From: Stephanodiscus triporus
Lineage: Eukaryota; Bacillariophyta; Thalassiosirophyceae; Thalassiosirales; Thalassiosiraceae
DNA length: 20,280 bases
Direction: 5' to 3'
Assembly: GCA_036939755.1 (NCBI GenBank)
Contig: JALLAZ010000139.1
Coordinates: 9,802 to 30,081, forward strand
A program made the position numbers and the translations under genes. Below, one piece after another: positions 4,398 through 19,004 of this stretch (positions within the stretch are counted from its first letter, which is position 1; every line of letters begins with the position of its first letter). A model generated the notes under the pieces. It was not told where the DNA came from. It worked only from the letters and a program-made list of their open reading frames with translations, and ran no database searches.

Positions 4398-5910
4398 ATG
4401 ACGTTGAATATATCCGATCTCATCATCACAATTGCATACTTCTCAATTCCTATACAGATATTGGTGGCTTTGTGCAGGTTTCCTCGGGTGACGAAACGAG
4501 CTACAAAGCGAGTCGTCATACTTTTGGTATTATTCGCCTTCTTCATCTTCCTTTGTGGGGCTGGTCATTTAATACGTTGCGTCGGCAGCGTGGACTCGAC
4601 CATTCACCACATAGTCAACGTCCTAACGGCGACCGTGTCCCTGACAACATCGGTATATCTCCTCTCATTTATCCCTATGATGCTTGATGGGACGGACAAG
4701 CTTTATCTCGAGGCCGCGGCCTCGAGAAGTATTTTAGAATCCTTGTACCCACCAATGATTAGGGAGCGACTTCTGCAGAGAGGCTGTGAAGATTCTCTGC
4801 CAAGTGTGATGGAGGAAGGTAGCGTCAAGGACGATTATAATCAGAACGATGATGTAGGAGCTGATATAAAACGTCCAAATGAAAGCATATTTCATAGGGT
4901 GATAACTCGCTCAGACTCGACGACAATTCGTCGTATACAAGACTTAATTCAGAAAAAACGAGAACGCCCATCAGGCGCTTGCGCTGACTCTAAACCGATC
5001 GCTGAAAGTTTTCCCGACACATCAATTATGTTCGCTGACATTTCCAACTTCACATTATGGTCGTCCATGCACTCCCCAAATCAGGTATTTACTCTATTGG
5101 AGTCTCTCTTCTTCGAATTTGACAAAGTCGCTACGGAAATGGAAGTGTTCAAACTGTCCACCGTTGGAGACTGTTACGTTGCAACTACCGGAGTTCCCTA
5201 TCCGCGAGAAGATCATGCTATAGTGCTGGCGAAGTTTTCAGAACGCTGTCGCAGGAAGGCAAATGAAGTTTTTCAAAGGTTATCTGAGCAAGGCGAGATA
5301 GACGGTATCAGCCAACTAAAAATTAGGATCGGAATTCATTCCGGGCCTGTCACGGCGGGAGTGTTAAGAGGGAACAATAGATTTGATGTTTTCGGAGACA
5401 CAATTAACACAGCATCACGCATAGAAAGTACAGGTGAGCCGGATCGGATTCATATAAGCAAGGAGACAGCGGAATTGCTTGAAAAGGCAGGGAAAGGTGA
5501 GTGCGGATGGTTTAATGTTATTTATGTCTTCGTGGATTGGTGTTAGGGAGAGGGGGGAATCGATGGCTCTCTCTGATCGTCATCCGAATCGCCCTCGTCG
5601 TCGTCGTTGTTGTTTGTGACCGATCGCAGGTGACTGGATAACCCCACGAAAAAATTCTGTGAGAGCAAAAGGACAGGGCGACCTCAACACATTTTGGCTC
5701 GAGATAGGGGATGACGACCCGGCGTCGTCGGGTAGGCCGGCTGGGTCGACGCCCCCCCCCCGACGGCGCCCCCGACGACGGTCGTCCCGGGTAACCGATG
5801 AAACCTGTGATGATTTTAACAATGGTCACATGAAGTTGCTGATAAATAAAATTGAACTAACTGAAAGAACTGTAGGGAGCTATGTCGAATCAACAGATGA
5901 GGTTCTGTGA
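4398..5910 (+). CDS. Ethylene-receptor-type membrane sensor fused to class III nucleotidyl cyclase (2 exons)
   Basis: Exon 1 is 4398-5496 and exon 2 is 5630-5910; the 133-nt intron has GTGAGT donor and GCAG acceptor. The joined product is 459 aa. Residues 1-96 have three membrane segments that read like the plant ETR1 sensor: ISDLIITIAYFSIP (D7, Y14, I17, P18), FIFLCGAGHLI (I50, C53, H57) and VLTATVSL. C53 and H57 correspond to the ETR1 copper ligands. No GAF or histidine kinase follows; instead a helix like those before cyclases (SILESLYPPMIRERLL, about 111-126), an acidic linker, then the cyclase. Metal aspartates are D214 (FADISNFT) and D258 (TVGDCYVA); transition-state residues are N337 and R341 (NTASR). 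Splicing restores the C-terminal end of the domain (GDWITPRK…LNTFWLEI). The purine-selecting positions are S254 and D330, so whether it makes cAMP or cGMP is uncertain. The first in-frame ATG is 4398, putting the sensor at the extreme N-terminus. Both domain calls are strong; ligand and product are inferred. Confidence 0.9.
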
Positions 5911-8373: not shown

Positions 8374-8771
8374 TGTTGATTTCTTTTGTGTGAATATTGA
8401 TGTGTATCGGTGTCGGTGCCAACAGAGAAAATGCTCGTAGTCACCGATCAAGAATCGATGAGGAAAGCATCTCCACCGCTTACCATGCCGGTCCCCAAGG
8501 CCACCGCTTCTTGATGACAAAACATTGTCGACACCATTATATTTTTTTCTGATCGTGAATCGTTAAAAGTCTTTTTTCTTCCACCCGCGCCCTGCCTGTG
8601 CCTTCGGCTACTTATTTTATTTTTTAGCTGTCGTTACGTACTTATCTGTCACATCAGTGGTCTTCAGCTATTTTAGCAGTTGCTCACAGGGCCACATATT
8701 TTTTTATCCCGTGGTTCATCTTTTTTTTGTTATCCCCCTGGCTTTGCCCTATTATTATCAACTCTCACGTC
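8374..8771. promoter_or_regulatory. Divergent promoter region
   Basis: Lies between the start codons of the repeat-protein gene (minus) and the MAPEG gene (plus), so it should hold both promoters and leaders. A possible GGTAAG donor in minus-strand sense near 8480-8485 hints at a leader intron for the minus gene. Pyrimidine-rich tracts cover 8690-8745. No specific factor site can be named. Confidence 0.45.
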
Positions 8772-9230
8772 ATGGTTTCCATCGAACTCAACCAAGACCA
8801 CGGCAAGTGCATCGCCGTCCTCGTGTTGCTATGGGTACAGCAGCAGCTCATCTTCGCGATTGCCGTGGCGGTTGCTCGAAAAAAAAGCGGCATCCAACCT
8901 CCCACCCTTTACCCGCGAGACTCCGAGATCAAGTCCCTTAACCTCTCCCCCGCCGACGTCGAATCGTACATGTGCGTCCAGAGGGTGCACCAGAACAACG
9001 TCGAATTTCTGTCTTGTTACTTCCCCGTGATGATGATGGCCATGATTGACTATCCGACACAGACGTATTACGCCAGCGTCGTGGTTTGGATCGGTAGGAT
9101 GTTCGTCGCGTTGGGATATTACAATGGCGCGTCGAAACGGGCGGCGGGGGCGTTCTTCCACTTCGGTGAATGGTACGTCGTTTACTTAGCGGGGAAATTC
9201 GCTCACAAGCTCGCTACGGAAGAGGCATAG
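8772..9230 (+). CDS. MAPEG family protein, microsomal GST 3-like
   Basis: A 152-residue, intronless membrane protein, the usual size for MAPEG members. ATG at 8772 begins MVSIELNQDHGK; the frame is open further upstream but only from non-ATG codons. The MGST3/LTC4-synthase signature is visible: ARKKSGI…YP, then YMCVQRVHQNNVEFL (compare CIQRAHQNTLE), then GRMFVALGYYNGASKRAAGA. Four hydrophobic segments fit the family's four-helix fold. Members use glutathione to conjugate lipophilic electrophiles or reduce lipid hydroperoxides in ER or outer mitochondrial membranes. Which reaction this one performs cannot be told from sequence. An AATAAA at 9236-9241 lies 6 bp past the stop. Confidence 0.88.
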   Translation: MVSIELNQDHGKCIAVLVLLWVQQQLIFAIAVAVARKKSGIQPPTLYPRDSEIKSLNLSPADVESYMCVQRVHQNNVEFLSCYFPVMMMAMIDYPTQTYYASVVVWIGRMFVALGYYNGASKRAAGAFFHFGEWYVVYLAGKFAHKLATEEA

Positions 9231-10635: not shown

Positions 10636-13116
10636 TCATAGCGCCATAATCCGATCGGGACTCGAGATGCCCTCCATTGACCCCTTCATGTTCATCAAGC
10701 GCTCAAAACCAACTATTGAGGATCGCATTAAGCCGCGCCCTTTCAATGTATGCCCACGAACGTCAGTGATGTGAACGACTGCATAGTCACCACGAGACAA
10801 TCCCACCTTTGTCTTCAAATCATTAGGAGGACTTGCTAAGTCATCAAGCAGCAACGACTCTAGTCCTGTATATTTGCTAACAATTGCGTTCGATGATAGA
10901 AGATCTTCCTCAGTCCAACAAGCCTCGCTTGCGAATACCACACGCTTGTTCTGGTCCGTCCTCCCCGAAAACATTCTATTCTCGGCGGTGCTCCTCTTCG
11001 CATCTCCCTCGACGAGTACCAGGCGCAGCTTACCCATCTCCATCCGCTCGTTCCGAATTTGGACGTTTCGCCGGAAATTATCTATCACCTCATTCAATCG
11101 ACGAGCTTTCACGTCGGGGGGGACATCGTCGATCATCGTGCGGTGGGCGTGCGTCCTCTCCCTCATGCTGTACGCAAACATGAACGCCTGATCGAACTGA
11201 ACCGCGTCCATAAGCGACAGCGTCTCTTCGTGCTCGCCCTCCGTCTCGCCGCAAAATCCCGCGATGAAATCGCTCGAGATGGCGACGTCAGGGATCAGAT
11301 CCCTAACGTCCTCGATCAATTCCATGTACGCCTCCCTCGAGTATCCCCTCCTCATCCTGTCGAGTACCGCCGACGAGCCGGATTGCGCCGGCATGTGCAG
11401 ATGCTTGCATATGTTCGGACGCTCGGCCATCAGGTCGAGGAGGGGGGGGGGATAATCCTTCGGGTGGGGCGAGGTGAAGCGCACGCGCAGCTCGGGGGAG
11501 AGGTCGGACACCGCCTCCAGGAGGTCGGCGAAACGATGGCCCTCCCCGTGACGGAGGCGGAACACGTTCGAGAAGCCGTCGTTGGACGTACGGTATGTGC
11601 CGCCTCCGCCGCCGTCGTCGCCGTCCGCACCCCTCGTCCTGCCCCGCCCCCCCCCCACGTCGTGGTAGGAATTGACGTTCTGACCGAGGAGTATCACCTC
11701 CCGTATGCCCTCCTCCTCCAGCAGCCTCCTCGTCTCGCCCACCACGCTCTCCAATTCGCGACTCCTCTCCCTTCCCCTCGTGAACGGCACTACGCAGTAC
11801 GAGCACATGTTGTTGCACCCGCGCATGACCGACACGAACGCCGAGACGTCGTCTGGATCTGACCGTATCGGCGCGATCGAGGCGTATGTCTCGTCGAGGG
11901 AAAGGCGGACGTTGACTGCGCGCTCCGTCGGGAGGGATGAGGAAGACGAGGAGGAAGACGAGGAGGAGGAGGAGGACGCCGCCAGCATCGAGATCAGGCG
12001 GGGAAGGTCGCGATACGCGTCCGGACCGACCACGACGTCGGCCGTGCCGTCCCTGAACATGTCCTCCTTGAGGCGCTCGGCCATGCACCCCAGGACGCCG
12101 ATGATGCGCCTGCGGTGTTTTTTTTTCCGTCGCGGTCCGTGCCGGCCGGTCGTCGCGGATGTCGACGCCGTCGCCTCCGCGTCGTCCTCGCGGTCGTCGC
12201 CCGACGACGACGGGGAGGTGGGGTCGGAGTAGGAGAGCGGAAAGTTGCGATCGTGGGATCTCAATTCGCGCAGGCGATGCCAAACCTTCTGCTCGGCGTT
12301 CTCGCGAATGGCGCATGTGTTCGTTAGGAGGACGTCCGCGTCGATCTCGTCGTGTGTCTCGACGAACCTCAACGACGAGGTCGGCGACGGCGCGGCGACG
12401 ACGGGGTCGGCGAGATGATGGTTCACGAGTATCGACCGCACGATGTCGGTGCCGTTGACGTTCATCTGACAGCCGTAGGTCTTGAGGTGGAATTTCATCG
12501 TCGTCGCGGCGCGTCGTGGGGGGGCGTCGATCATCGCGCGTGGTCTTCGTCGGCCGAGGCGGTCCATCGCGTTAAACGACGGATCATCATCGGGACCGAG
12601 GAGGACATTTTTACGACCGGACATGGCGTCCGCGATGGTCGGATCCGGTCGTTCGTCTTCGTCTTCGTCGTCGTAGTATTCGTCTCCCAATTCCGCCGCC
12701 ACCGGCGCGGTGGAGGAGATCATCGCGGCATCATATTCGTCGTCGCGCGGATCATTCAGATCGTCATCCGAGGGAGAGGAGGAGGAGGTGGTGGCGCCGG
12801 CGATGAAATGGGAAAGGGTGAGCCCGTCGTCCTCGATGATCGTTCGTCGTCCCGAGCTACTGCCACCACGCGACATCGACGACGACGACGACGACGACGA
12901 CTGGCGCACGACGACGAAAACGCCCGATCGATCGCAGTCGAGGACGACGGCATCATAGGCGTCGTCGTTGTTCGCGCGGCGATATCGAGAGGAGATGACG
13001 CCACTACGACGAACGCCACCGCCCCCGATGATGATATCGGGAGTTCGATGACGTCGACGGTGCCCGAGATGCGGGCGCAGTAGGGCACCGATCGAAGAAG
13101 ATCGGCTTCGGATCAT
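10636..13116 (-). CDS. CDK5RAP1: tRNA methylthiotransferase (CDK5RAP1/MiaB family, radical SAM)
   Basis: An 826-residue product from the ATG at 13116. It would add a methylthio group to isopentenyl-adenosine-37 of tRNAs, using two iron-sulfur clusters. The UPF0004 domain shows its three cluster cysteines: C216 in KTYGCQMNVN, one in TNTCAIRENAEQKVWHRL and one in GVLGCMAERL. The radical SAM triad is C434, C438, C441 (RGCNNMCSYC), followed by VVPFTRGRERSR and VILLGQNVNSY. A TRAM-type domain lies at about 690-810 (LRLVLVEGDAKRS…VHITDVRGHTLKGRGL). YGCQMNVN and the AEQKVWHRL segment favour CDK5RAP1/MiaB over CDKAL1/MtaB. It is longer than human CDK5RAP1 (about 600 aa) because of a ~205-residue N-terminal extension and inserts, including a poly-Ser run near residue 385. 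The basic, Ser-rich first ~50 residues could be an organelle-targeting peptide. No introns are needed. Confidence 0.93.
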   Translation of the reverse strand: MIRSRSSSIGALLRPHLGHRRRHRTPDIIIGGGGVRRSGVISSRYRRANNDDAYDAVVLDCDRSGVFVVVRQSSSSSSSSMSRGGSSSGRRTIIEDDGLTLSHFIAGATTSSSSPSDDDLNDPRDDEYDAAMISSTAPVAAELGDEYYDDEDEDERPDPTIADAMSGRKNVLLGPDDDPSFNAMDRLGRRRPRAMIDAPPRRAATTMKFHLKTYGCQMNVNGTDIVRSILVNHHLADPVVAAPSPTSSLRFVETHDEIDADVLLTNTCAIRENAEQKVWHRLRELRSHDRNFPLSYSDPTSPSSSGDDREDDAEATASTSATTGRHGPRRKKKHRRRIIGVLGCMAERLKEDMFRDGTADVVVGPDAYRDLPRLISMLAASSSSSSSSSSSSSSLPTERAVNVRLSLDETYASIAPIRSDPDDVSAFVSVMRGCNNMCSYCVVPFTRGRERSRELESVVGETRRLLEEEGIREVILLGQNVNSYHDVGGGRGRTRGADGDDGGGGGTYRTSNDGFSNVFRLRHGEGHRFADLLEAVSDLSPELRVRFTSPHPKDYPPPLLDLMAERPNICKHLHMPAQSGSSAVLDRMRRGYSREAYMELIEDVRDLIPDVAISSDFIAGFCGETEGEHEETLSLMDAVQFDQAFMFAYSMRERTHAHRTMIDDVPPDVKARRLNEVIDNFRRNVQIRNERMEMGKLRLVLVEGDAKRSTAENRMFSGRTDQNKRVVFASEACWTEEDLLSSNAIVSKYTGLESLLLDDLASPPNDLKTKVGLSRGDYAVVHITDVRGHTLKGRGLMRSSIVGFERLMNMKGSMEGISSPDRIMAL

Positions 13117-13523
13117 GGCTGATGGGGTCGTGCCCTTGCCACACACTCCACACTCCGCCGCCGGGTCCTCTCGCGCCCTTCCCTTTTTTTGGAGCTACGG
13201 CAATTTGAGGGCGAGGGACGGACGGCGCGTGAATGATTTTTTTGTGTTTGTTTTTCTCTGTGTGGAAAGCAAAAGGGCGCGTGATAATAATATCGTTGTC
13301 TGTTGCCGCCGCCGTTTTGAGGGAGGTGAGAGGTCAAGTTTCGATCTCCTTCTCTAATTCCTGCTGCAAACGATTGCGCGGACGAATGTCATCGGTTGGT
13401 CGCTCGTGAATCAGGAAGCAAAATTGGACCTTATTGAGCGCCAAGCTTATTATTTGTCGAAATAAAATACCGTCGTCGCACCCCCCCCCCCTCCCCCCCC
13501 TTCTCGGAAGCCTCATTTGTCCG
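13117..13523. promoter_or_regulatory. Divergent promoter region
   Basis: Sits between the ATGs of the CDK5RAP1-like gene (minus) and the palmitoyltransferase gene (plus). It contains an almost pure C tract at 13481-13500 shortly before the plus-strand start. No named factor site is recognisable. Confidence 0.45.
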
Positions 13524-15319
13524 ATGACTAATCAAAATAATAATAGGAGGAGAACCAAAAAGGGAAAATTCTTCATCCCGAGGACAAGTATAGAATTCAG
13601 AACATGTCTTCAACGGTTGATCCTCCACCTTTTCAACGTGGCGTTCCAACTAGCCGACAAGACGATGTACCTGCTCGGCCCAGTTCTCATCGCTGTCGCG
13701 TCTGCTATAATAATCGGATTGACATATTTATACTTCGCGATAATCCTGCCGATGTTGGCCGGTACGAACTGGGTGGTTACAAACTCCGACTTGAGTGCCT
13801 ATTGGAAGGAACGGGGCTATGTTGTTTTGGCCGATGATGAAAATATGGGACGCTCGGATGATGGCACGTCGCAAATATCGCCGATCTCGTCCACCCTCAT
13901 TGCGCTCTCCACGCCCGCGGGAATATTCCACACGCTCCTCGTATCATTTTTCATCGTGAACATACTCTACAACTATTACAAATGCGTCGTGACAACGAAC
14001 TCCGGACCGAGCTATGATGTCGTCGTGAGGCAGATGGCGGACGCCACCGGCTTTCATTATCCAGAGACGGAGGATGAATTGTTACGATTCAAGAGGGATT
14101 TCGAACGAAAGATATACGAAAGTATGCAGCGGCAGCGGAACGAGATGATGTCCTCTTCTCGCGGCGATGTGAGCAACGATGTCGGCGCCAGTCAGGGCAC
14201 AGGCGATGAAGAGGCACAGGAATCCCAATCCTCGCCATTAATGGGGACGTCCACGGCAAACACGATAACACCCGCGGCACCCGCGGATAAAATCCCACAG
14301 GGTCAACCGCCAAAACTCTGGCAGCTGCTCTCTCCAACCGAATGGGGATATTGTCGATACTCGTCGCAACCAAAGCCACCCCGATCGCACTACGACCACG
14401 TTACGAAAGCTTTGGTATTGAACATGGATCACTATTGCCCATGGATGTTCAACTGTGTAGGGTATTTCAATTATCGGCGAGTCATTTTTTGCTTTGTTGG
14501 TGTATGTTGCGTCTGGTTTTGTGTTTCACATTCTCATTGTCGCTTTATCTCCTGCTCGACAGATATTTTTTCAATTTTTTATGGTTTGTATCTGCGGCGC
14601 TGTGGTATGGAACGGCCCTGTGTTTCCCGGCATTCATGAAACTTGGTGGCAAAGAGTACAGAGATCAAGTAAAAAAGGCAATCTTACTTGATAAGGCAGG
14701 TGGAGGCTTTCATGTGAGGCATATTCAATCGAATCCGTTCATTCCTACGCCCGCAGAGCGTGCACCTGTGACACTGGGCTTCATGTTGTGCATATGCCTC
14801 GCTGCGGCAGTAACGTGTTTGTGTGGTTTTCATTTGTATTTAGTGCTCAGTGCACAGTCAACAATCGAATTTCACGCCAATTTTTCCAAGAGGAGAAAGG
14901 CTGGGTGGAAGAATCCGTACTCTGCTGGAAGGTGGAAGAAAAATTGGGAGATGATATATGGTACTCGTTACTGGTCACGCCACAGTGCTGGTGGCAGTCG
15001 CGAAAGTGAAGATGAAGAACAATATAGCTATCATGGCTGTTGGGGTATTCTGATGGCGATGTTGCCAAGTAAAAGAGAGCCTGAGTTTCTACCCTTCCCT
15101 ATCAATGGGAGGTTGATTAGAAGAAACAAAAATGCCAATGAGAACGTAGTGACGGATATTGAGATGGCTTCATCAGAAGTAATCGCGAATGGAAAGTCGG
15201 CGACTAGTCACTCCGACGGGACAGATTTTATGATGGACCTGAAATGCACCAATGGGCCACTCGTGGAGAGGACTAGGGCAAGTACAACCTCGGACGGGGT
15301 ACAGGCAAGTTGGGACTAG
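13524..15319 (+). CDS. DHHC-type protein S-acyltransferase with DHYC active site (2 exons)
   Basis: Exon 1 is 13524-14476 and exon 2 is 14563-15319, giving 569 aa. The family transfers palmitate to cysteines of membrane-associated proteins. Two membrane segments come first (MYLLGPVLIAVASAIIIG and GIFHTLLVSFFIVNILY), then a polar ~140-residue cytosolic stretch. The catalytic block follows: KPPRSHYDHVTKALVLNMDHYCPWMFNCVGYFNYRYFFNFL, with the active-site DHYC at 302-305. Two more membrane segments and the STIEFHANF motif (family TTxE) follow. The frame breaks inside NYR|YFF. Removing 14477-14562, which starts GCGAGT and ends CAG, restores the family sequence exactly, so a GC-AG intron is the best model. 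Several zinc-binding cysteines usual upstream of DHHC are replaced (YCRYSSQPKPPRSHYDH). ATG 13524 is the first in frame. Confidence 0.85.
14477..14562 (+). other. Putative GC-AG intron of the palmitoyltransferase gene
   Basis: 86 nt, donor CG|GCGAGT, acceptor GACAG|AT. No GT donor near the break gives the correct phase; the nearby GTCATT is one base out of register. The interval is T-rich near its 3' end, as expected for an intron. Confidence 0.7.
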
Positions 15320-17960: not shown

Positions 17961-18048
17961 CTAAGCGTAACCCAACGAGCCCATTATCAAATCGTATACC
18001 CAAAACGTCACCCCATTACTCACTGCTGCACGCAAGAGTAGAAGGCCT
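17956..18048 (-). repeat. Carrier 3' end, also present at 19132-19224
   Basis: 93 bp that recurs at 19132-19224 with two mismatches, both synonymous in the carrier reading frame (Ser TCG/TCT and Ala GCT/GCG). It covers the last coding bases, including LIMGSLGYA and the TAG stop. Confidence 0.9.
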
Positions 18049-19004
18049 AATCCACTGAAGAACGCACCTATGCCTTCAGTCTTGTACATTACAACAGCAA
18101 CATCGATAGCACCGACAGGTTTTCCACTTGCAGATTCTCCACCCTTCGTGTTTTGCATGCGTGTCTTGACTACATCGATCGGATAGACTGGTATCCAGCA
18201 CGCCATTCCACTGATAGCCCCGCAAACCATTGAAGCCATGATTCCTAGTGCGTCCTTCATGGCGGTTTGCATCAAAAGTCCGTAGACAACGAAATATATT
18301 GCATTACTGGGCACCTCTCGCGCCAATGTTATGCCAAAGCCACGCGTCAGAAGACCACGCCACCCTTCACTTCGAAGAATAGCGTTGAAACAATCCAGCT
18401 CGTTGGCATACAGGGATCCATTTTCTTGAGCTTGCATCATAACTTTGATTCGATCTTTTGCATTTCAAGAGAGAAAAGGTGTTGTTCTTGCCGTGTAAAG
18501 GTAGTGTTTGAATCAATTAAGAGCACATTCAATGAGCCCTTCCATTAGATGAAACTATGGTTCGAACTTACCCACAGGAACAACAACAAACGTCTGTACG
18601 AAACCCGACAAACATGCCGCAAGAAGCAACGTTACGAATGGAGTTACAGCCCTACCATCAACTCCTCCGCCCAAGAAATTGAATGCATCCAGCACACCAA
18701 TCACCAGCTTATTGGTACTGAAGGAGACAGCACTGATCAACGCGCTCCCAATCATAGCGGATGTCACTCCGCCAAAGAATCCAGGAATGCCTTCCCGTTG
18801 AAATGTATTACTCGCTCGCTCAAATACAGTTTCACCCGCTGTTCCTTTGGTGCAGACTTTCACTTGCGCCTTCGTTTTGAGCACATCGATCGGGTACGCG
18901 ACACACACGCCAATGGCACTGCCGACTCCACCAGCCAAGATGGAGGCAGCGGTGCTCCCAATGACGACCGAGAGTGACGTCGAGACAACTCCATCTTCTC
19001 CCAT
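17961..19004 (-). CDS. Mitochondrial carrier family (SLC25) protein (2 exons)
   Basis: Exon 1 is 19004-18572 and exon 2 is 18454-17961. The 117-nt intron has GTAAGT donor and AAAAG acceptor; splicing gives 308 aa, the usual family length. Three carrier repeats are visible. Repeat 1 has YPIDVLKTKAQ and repeat 3 has YPIDVVKTRMQ. The repeat 2 motif is created by the splice: VPVG reads into DRIKVMMQAQ, giving P-V-D-R-I-K. Glycine-rich helices and GFFGG, GLLTRGF and GAFFSGLG segments fit the family's even-numbered helix pattern. REVPSNAIYF after repeat 2 resembles carnitine/acylcarnitine and basic amino acid carriers (SLC25A20/A29 group), but the substrate cannot be fixed. It acts in the inner mitochondrial membrane. 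ATG 19004 is the first Met in frame. Confidence 0.9.

Follow-up and report, generated by a model that had tools for sequence, protein, structure and literature searches.

Diatom proteins that join a predicted ethylene-receptor-type sensor directly to a class III nucleotidyl cyclase

Gene model and genomic neighborhood

We analyzed a window of 20,280 nucleotides from Stephanodiscus triporus (the whole stretch of DNA under study), which carries on its forward strand, at 4398..5910, a two-exon gene for a 459-aa protein with a predicted ethylene-receptor-type sensor and a class III nucleotidyl cyclase. The gene start was taken as the first in-frame ATG (4398), from which the frame stays open until a stop codon ending at 5546. 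An intron of 133 bases (5497..5629, forward strand, GTGAGT...GCAG) connects this frame to exon 2 and to a TGA ending at 5910. Many alternative joins were possible; we chose this one because exon 2 then opens with DWITPRKNSVRAKGQGDLNTFWL and so supplies the C-terminus of the cyclase domain, a stretch that runs on continuously in the proteins of Cyclostephanos (P0005) and Cyclotella (P0006, P0012 and P0015). With this join, exon 1 (4398..5496, forward strand) encodes residues 1-366 plus the first base of the next codon, and exon 2 (5630..5910, forward strand) encodes the end of the cyclase (AKGQG...TFWL), a proline/arginine-rich tail and the stop codon. The intron is located inside the cyclase domain, whose end is supplied by exon 2, and the sensor and most of the cyclase lie within one uninterrupted exon.

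A Pfam search with E-values up to 1 yielded two matches in the protein, both above cut-off: ETR1_N (PF25487) at residues 5-96 (57.8 bits for a cut-off of 27, E-value 1.3e-15) and Guanylate_cyc at residues 203-391 (152.9 bits for a cut-off of 21.9, E-value 9.3e-45). No GAF, histidine-kinase or receiver domain was found at this threshold. The initial annotation had described a single gene in which the cyclase directly follows the sensor, without GAF or kinase, and this is the arrangement that we recovered.

The neighbors identified in the window are ordinary genes, namely those for a MAPEG protein (8727-9230, forward strand), a radical-SAM/UPF0004 protein (10636-13146, reverse strand), a DHHC palmitoyltransferase (13434-15319, forward strand) and a mitochondrial carrier (17961-18440, reverse strand); 5 of the 10 frames scanned in the window had no Pfam match. 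The C-terminus of the fusion protein (...STDEVL, 5890-5910) ends on a hydrophobic residue, like a PDZ ligand. A hydrophobic last residue also occurs in P0005-P0008, P0010, P0012, P0014, P0017, P0053 and P0082, which are fused proteins and two diatom kinases, and is missing from the fused protein P0015.

Sensor domain and predicted copper pocket

The ETR1_N or ethylene-binding domain (4410..4685, forward strand) comprises predicted membrane helices at residues 5-27 and 37-62 and the start of a third helix at 68-116. The initial annotation had paired seven residues of the ETR1 pocket, which we take to be D25, Y32, I35, P36, I62, C65 and H69, with D7, Y14, I17, P18, I50, C53 and H57 of the window protein, and all seven were found exactly where it had placed them. 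The predicted copper-ligand motif C53-G-A-G-H57 (4554..4568, forward strand) corresponds to C65/H69 in the ETR1 numbering used in PMC9603746.

We aligned 74 sensors, of which 15 are fused, 40 belong to eukaryotic kinases and 19 are of cyanobacterial type. I17, C53 and H57 are invariant in all 74, the Cys and His ligands being kept in 15/15 fused, 40/40 eukaryotic-kinase and 19/19 cyanobacterial-type rows. Y14 and P18 each fail in one row and D7 in three, one of which (P0005) is missing its start. I50 is Ile in 66 rows, including all fused and all cyanobacterial-type ones; 39 of the 40 eukaryotic kinases have Ile or Val there. In a wider set, CxxxH was present in 19/19 fused rows (leaving out the paralogue on host contig C1293 described below), 89/96 eukaryotic-kinase rows and 225/242 cyanobacterial-type rows, several of the misses being partial matches.

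A structure model of residues 1-130 predicted with the 74-row alignment (pLDDT 82.7, copper-free) has helices at 5-27, 37-62, 68-116 and 119-129. C53 and H57 sit on the second membrane helix of this model, and helix 3 runs unbroken to residue 116, towards the cyclase. The initial annotation had named a position of the two residues off the copper-binding helix as evidence against its reading, and the predicted model does not refute that reading. A near-full-length model, for which 15 sequences were used, was of low quality: its pLDDT was 54, and residues 91-206 fell under 50.

Ethylene receptors are known as kinase-type proteins. Like plant ETR1/ERS and Synechocystis SynEtr1 (slr1212), the window protein has the three-helix sensor and all seven pocket residues, the Cys/His copper ligands among them. 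Unlike them, it has no GAF, histidine-kinase or receiver domain (Pfam, E-values up to 1), so that the histidine-kinase or kinase-like output of such receptors, usually placed after a GAF domain, is replaced by a class III cyclase. ETR1 also has an N-terminal cysteine pair before helix 1, which the window protein (starting MTLNISDL) lacks.

Signaling helix, linker and cyclase domain

Helix 3 extends into a candidate signaling helix with a cyclase-proximal YPPxIRERL segment (4689..4781, forward strand, residues 98-128), followed by a poorly conserved cytosolic linker (4782..5003, forward strand, about residues 129-202). The fused and kinase rows of the 74-row alignment partly agree up to about residue 110 (D100, L102, E105, S109 and K/R110) and diverge at 116-120. 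Because histidine kinases and guanylyl cyclases share such a signaling helix (PMC1592074), an exchange of outputs at this helix is plausible.

The Guanylate_cyc domain (5004..5703, forward strand, residues 203-391) is split by the intron and carries D214, D258, N337, R341 and K380. We take D214 and D258 to be the metal aspartates and N337 and R341 the transition-state pair of class III cyclases; the initial annotation had likewise noted both metal aspartates and an Asn/Arg pair. It had passed over Ser254, which occupies a substrate-specifying position and is neither Lys nor Glu: in human AC5 and AC8, the adenine-site Lys of the second domain aligns over Ser254 and its partner Asp over Asp330, so that the Ser254/Asp330 pair is neither the Lys/Asp pair of ATP cyclases nor a Glu/Cys-type pair of GTP cyclases. 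Ser254 is invariant in a 15-row alignment of fused proteins, and other cyclases of the host genome have E/C, E/T and K/D pairs. Adenylyl cyclases use K and D, and guanylyl cyclases E with a varied partner, according to PMC4215837. Of the two residues in the window protein, Asp330 would point towards ATP, and Ser254 favors neither substrate.

Blastocladiella rhodopsin-guanylyl cyclase (RhGC) likewise has a membrane sensor ahead of a class III cyclase. Its cyclase domain was among the best PDB sequence matches and ranked first when a poor model was compared with known folds. RhGC differs in its unrelated, light-sensing rhodopsin and in its Glu/Cys substrate pair (from the residue names in the PDB title).

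Distribution of the fusion in diatoms

A search of a database of 5.8 billion proteins using residues 1-130 as a query yielded 30 proteins: 17 with both domains, 12 with kinase domains and 1 with ETR1_N alone (P0016), the later part of which looks like a frame-shifted cyclase. Named fused proteins come from Cyclotella cryptica (P0006 and P0012, both annotated in public databases as guanylate-cyclase-domain proteins), Cyclotella cf. meneghiniana and Cyclostephanos tholiformis, which places the host as a diatom near Cyclotella and Cyclostephanos, in line with the unicellular alga guessed from the sequence. The pairing is a real, recurrent and coherent architecture. Across 11 relatives, identity was 58-94% in the sensor and 68-96% in the cyclase, both of which are therefore better kept than the linker at 11-91%; for linker residues 131-195, the range was 11-62% in 10 of the 11 and 91% in the closest.

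Using the sensor of a Nitzschia kinase as a query instead, we retrieved 102 proteins, 97 with kinase domains and 5 that are fused cyclases. Named kinase-type proteins come from Nitzschia, Mayamaea, Seminavis, Fistulifera and a Bacillariaceae sp. The closest non-cyclase sensors are those of pennate-diatom ETR1_N histidine kinases (for example Nitzschia inconspicua P0022 and P0025, Seminavis P0043 and Fistulifera P0082), with 41-55% identity to the window sensor over the matched part. Two pennate kinases that we rescanned (P0018 and P0022) join the sensor directly to the output without GAF, as the fused proteins do, and the two groups share the helix up to about residue 110, whereas the kinases have HisKA-HATPase as their output, in most cases accompanied by a receiver. 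In a sensor tree of 17 fused, 58 kinase and 25 cyanobacterial rows (99 columns), the fused sensors formed one clade (support 100/99) that grouped with eukaryotic kinases, apart from cyanobacteria. This clade was drawn inside the kinase clade with support of 81/78, and a tree holding the kinases together was not rejected (p = 0.687).

Diatoms have ethylene-receptor homologues according to reviews (PMC7700396 and PMC6944256). The domain arrangements of SAR proteins are said in PMC7700396 to point to a wide variety of outputs, and functional studies of these proteins did not exist at the time. A description of a sensor-cyclase fusion was not found among the papers listed in the literature searches; within that coverage, this is consistent with the remark in the initial annotation that the architecture was not known as described.

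A second copy in the host genome that has lost pocket residues

The host assembly (21.65 Mb in 1,324 contigs, and possibly incomplete) contains two ETR1_N loci above the cut-off, the window gene and one on contig C1293, both of which are cyclase fusions; a third match, at 11.8 bits, was below it. The second copy (1495-2613 of locus L003, reverse strand) scores 34.6 bits for ETR1_N and carries A in place of P18 and R in place of H57, with the sequence CGVDR. Its exon 2 still codes for the cyclase end, with a donor that by our reading of the sequence would be GC instead of GT. We calculated dN/dS against the window gene over 361 codons (Nei-Gojobori, pairwise) and obtained 0.61 for the sensor, 0.94 for the helix, 0.56 for the linker and 0.27 for the cyclase. 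Most of the change lies on the C1293 copy, since its end branch in the sensor tree is 0.74 long, versus 0.029 for the window gene. This pattern, a relaxed sensor next to a constrained cyclase, fits an enzyme that would still be needed with a pocket that would not, and judging by this copy, which lost P18 and H57 and kept its cyclase, the cyclase can matter without the pocket.

HisKA gave no match in the 21.65 Mb of the host assembly, whereas the same search was positive in 12 of the 14 prokaryotic genomes used as controls; given the possibly incomplete assembly, an absence of such kinases from the host is suggestive only. Receiver domains gave four matches, two of them above the cut-off.

Cyclase genes beside sensor kinases in cyanobacteria

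Among 194 genomes sampled from the phylum to which a Pleurocapsales record (L012) belongs, 53 had the sensor (E-values up to 0.001). We then examined 120 stretches, mostly extending 6 kb on each side and some cut by contig ends, which covered 124 of the 130 matches listed; the sensor-frame profile was positive in 117 of the stretches, the exceptions being L163-L165. With a diatom-derived cyclase profile, which could miss very divergent cyclases, no frame combining sensor and cyclase was found in any of the 117 cyanobacterial loci, and Guanylate_cyc was not found among the 120 matches listed of 2,812 to a cyanobacterial sensor query.

In three of the 117 loci, Pfam identifies a sensor-kinase gene and, next after it in the same orientation, a gene for a receiver-cyclase: L046 (5631-12341), L047 (6871-13240) and L048 (5966-10255). 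The long ones among these ETR1_N kinases carry GAF, PAS and receiver domains. The neighboring products may communicate, which would make the loci relay clusters from ethylene to cyclic nucleotide in three genomes, and the sensor family is probably coupled to cyclases by a relay in some cyanobacteria. Because these loci set such a kinase directly before a receiver-cyclase gene, the link from sensor to cyclase has a likely relay precedent. They differ from the window in that the same sensor family would feed a class III cyclase through two or three separate genes and a putative phosphorelay, versus one protein. One of the 120 listed matches to the cyanobacterial sensor query, the ETR1_N protein P0164, carries GGDEF (PF00990) and EAL (PF00563) domains and may be an ethylene-type sensor acting on c-di-GMP turnover.

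Proposed mechanism and alternatives

The product of the window gene is probably a membrane-bound, ethylene-type receptor with a class III nucleotidyl cyclase as its output, producing cAMP or cGMP. As the pairing occurs in several related diatoms, ethylene may be signaled in them through a second messenger and not through the customary kinase. From its sequence we infer copper and ethylene binding, dimerization, a direction of regulation and a cyclic-nucleotide product. Two subunits would dimerize through their three-helix sensors and the extension of helix 3. A Cu(I) site formed by C53 and H57 would take up ethylene, the likely cue, or a comparable small olefin. This would move the shared helix (residues 68-116) and alter how the two cyclase domains meet, so that synthesis of cAMP or cGMP would be raised or, more probably, lowered. 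Plant ethylene receptors are switched off by ethylene. The Synechocystis receptor is likewise switched off, according to PMC7700396. We expect inhibition of the cyclase because ethylene turns both kinds of receptor off, and by this analogy a lowering of cyclase output by ethylene would be favored by little more than the toss of a coin.

The copper pocket may instead serve a different cue, either copper itself, CO, a small olefin other than ethylene or the redox state, that is passed to the cyclase, which we regard as unlikely. The window sensor has diverged from cyanobacterial domains, the best of which reach 157 bits for ETR1_N, far above its 57.8; its pocket residues would suit copper sensing too; and the literature covered reports no ethylene synthesis or response for the host organism. 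Diatom ethylene production is described as rare and its biochemistry as obscure in PMC10518463. Against a different cue, all seven ethylene-binding residues of ETR1 are kept, beyond the two metal ligands.

It is less probable still that the three-helix part is a mere membrane anchor or dimerizer, with a cyclase that is constitutive or under other inputs. The C1293 paralogue would suit such a role: it has lost P18 and H57, and dN/dS against the window gene reaches 0.61 for the sensor and 0.94 for the helix, compared with 0.27 for the cyclase. CxxxH, however, is kept in all 19 other fused rows, and the sensor, unlike the linker, comes close to the cyclase in conservation. An assembly chimera or a gene-model error fusing two genes might be feared in a fragmented assembly of 1,324 contigs; this explanation is close to refuted, however, by the single uninterrupted exon holding the sensor and most of the cyclase, by the presence of both domains in 17 of 30 relatives, including the named Cyclotella and Cyclostephanos proteins, and by the second host locus with the same pair.

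For the ethylene-receptor-type cyclase, a wider reading is possible that we hold somewhat more doubtful than not: in Cyclotella-type diatoms, olefin sensing may have departed from two-component signaling, the only ethylene-type receptors being cyclase fusions with direct control of cAMP or cGMP, of which one has an intact pocket and, in S. triporus, an additional copy is ethylene-blind and keeps its cyclase. If so, a plant-hormone gas would feed into cyclic-nucleotide signaling in this group of phytoplankton. A direct sensor-to-cyclase protein would give ethylene an easily read output in the form of cyclic nucleotide, through which diatom ethylene sensing and its messenger would become testable in one heterologous assay, with the pocket-dead paralogue of the host genome as a natural control.

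Proteins that could read the cyclic nucleotide appear to be present in the host, whose assembly gave 8 matches for PDEase_I and 27 for cNMP-binding domains, one of the latter under the cut-off. The same assembly contains, on contig C1038 (2016-2651 and 6438-7069, reverse strand), two adenylyl-type cyclase domains with a K/D pair, about 4.4 kb apart, which are on the same strand, identical over the main exon shown and perhaps a recent tandem copy.
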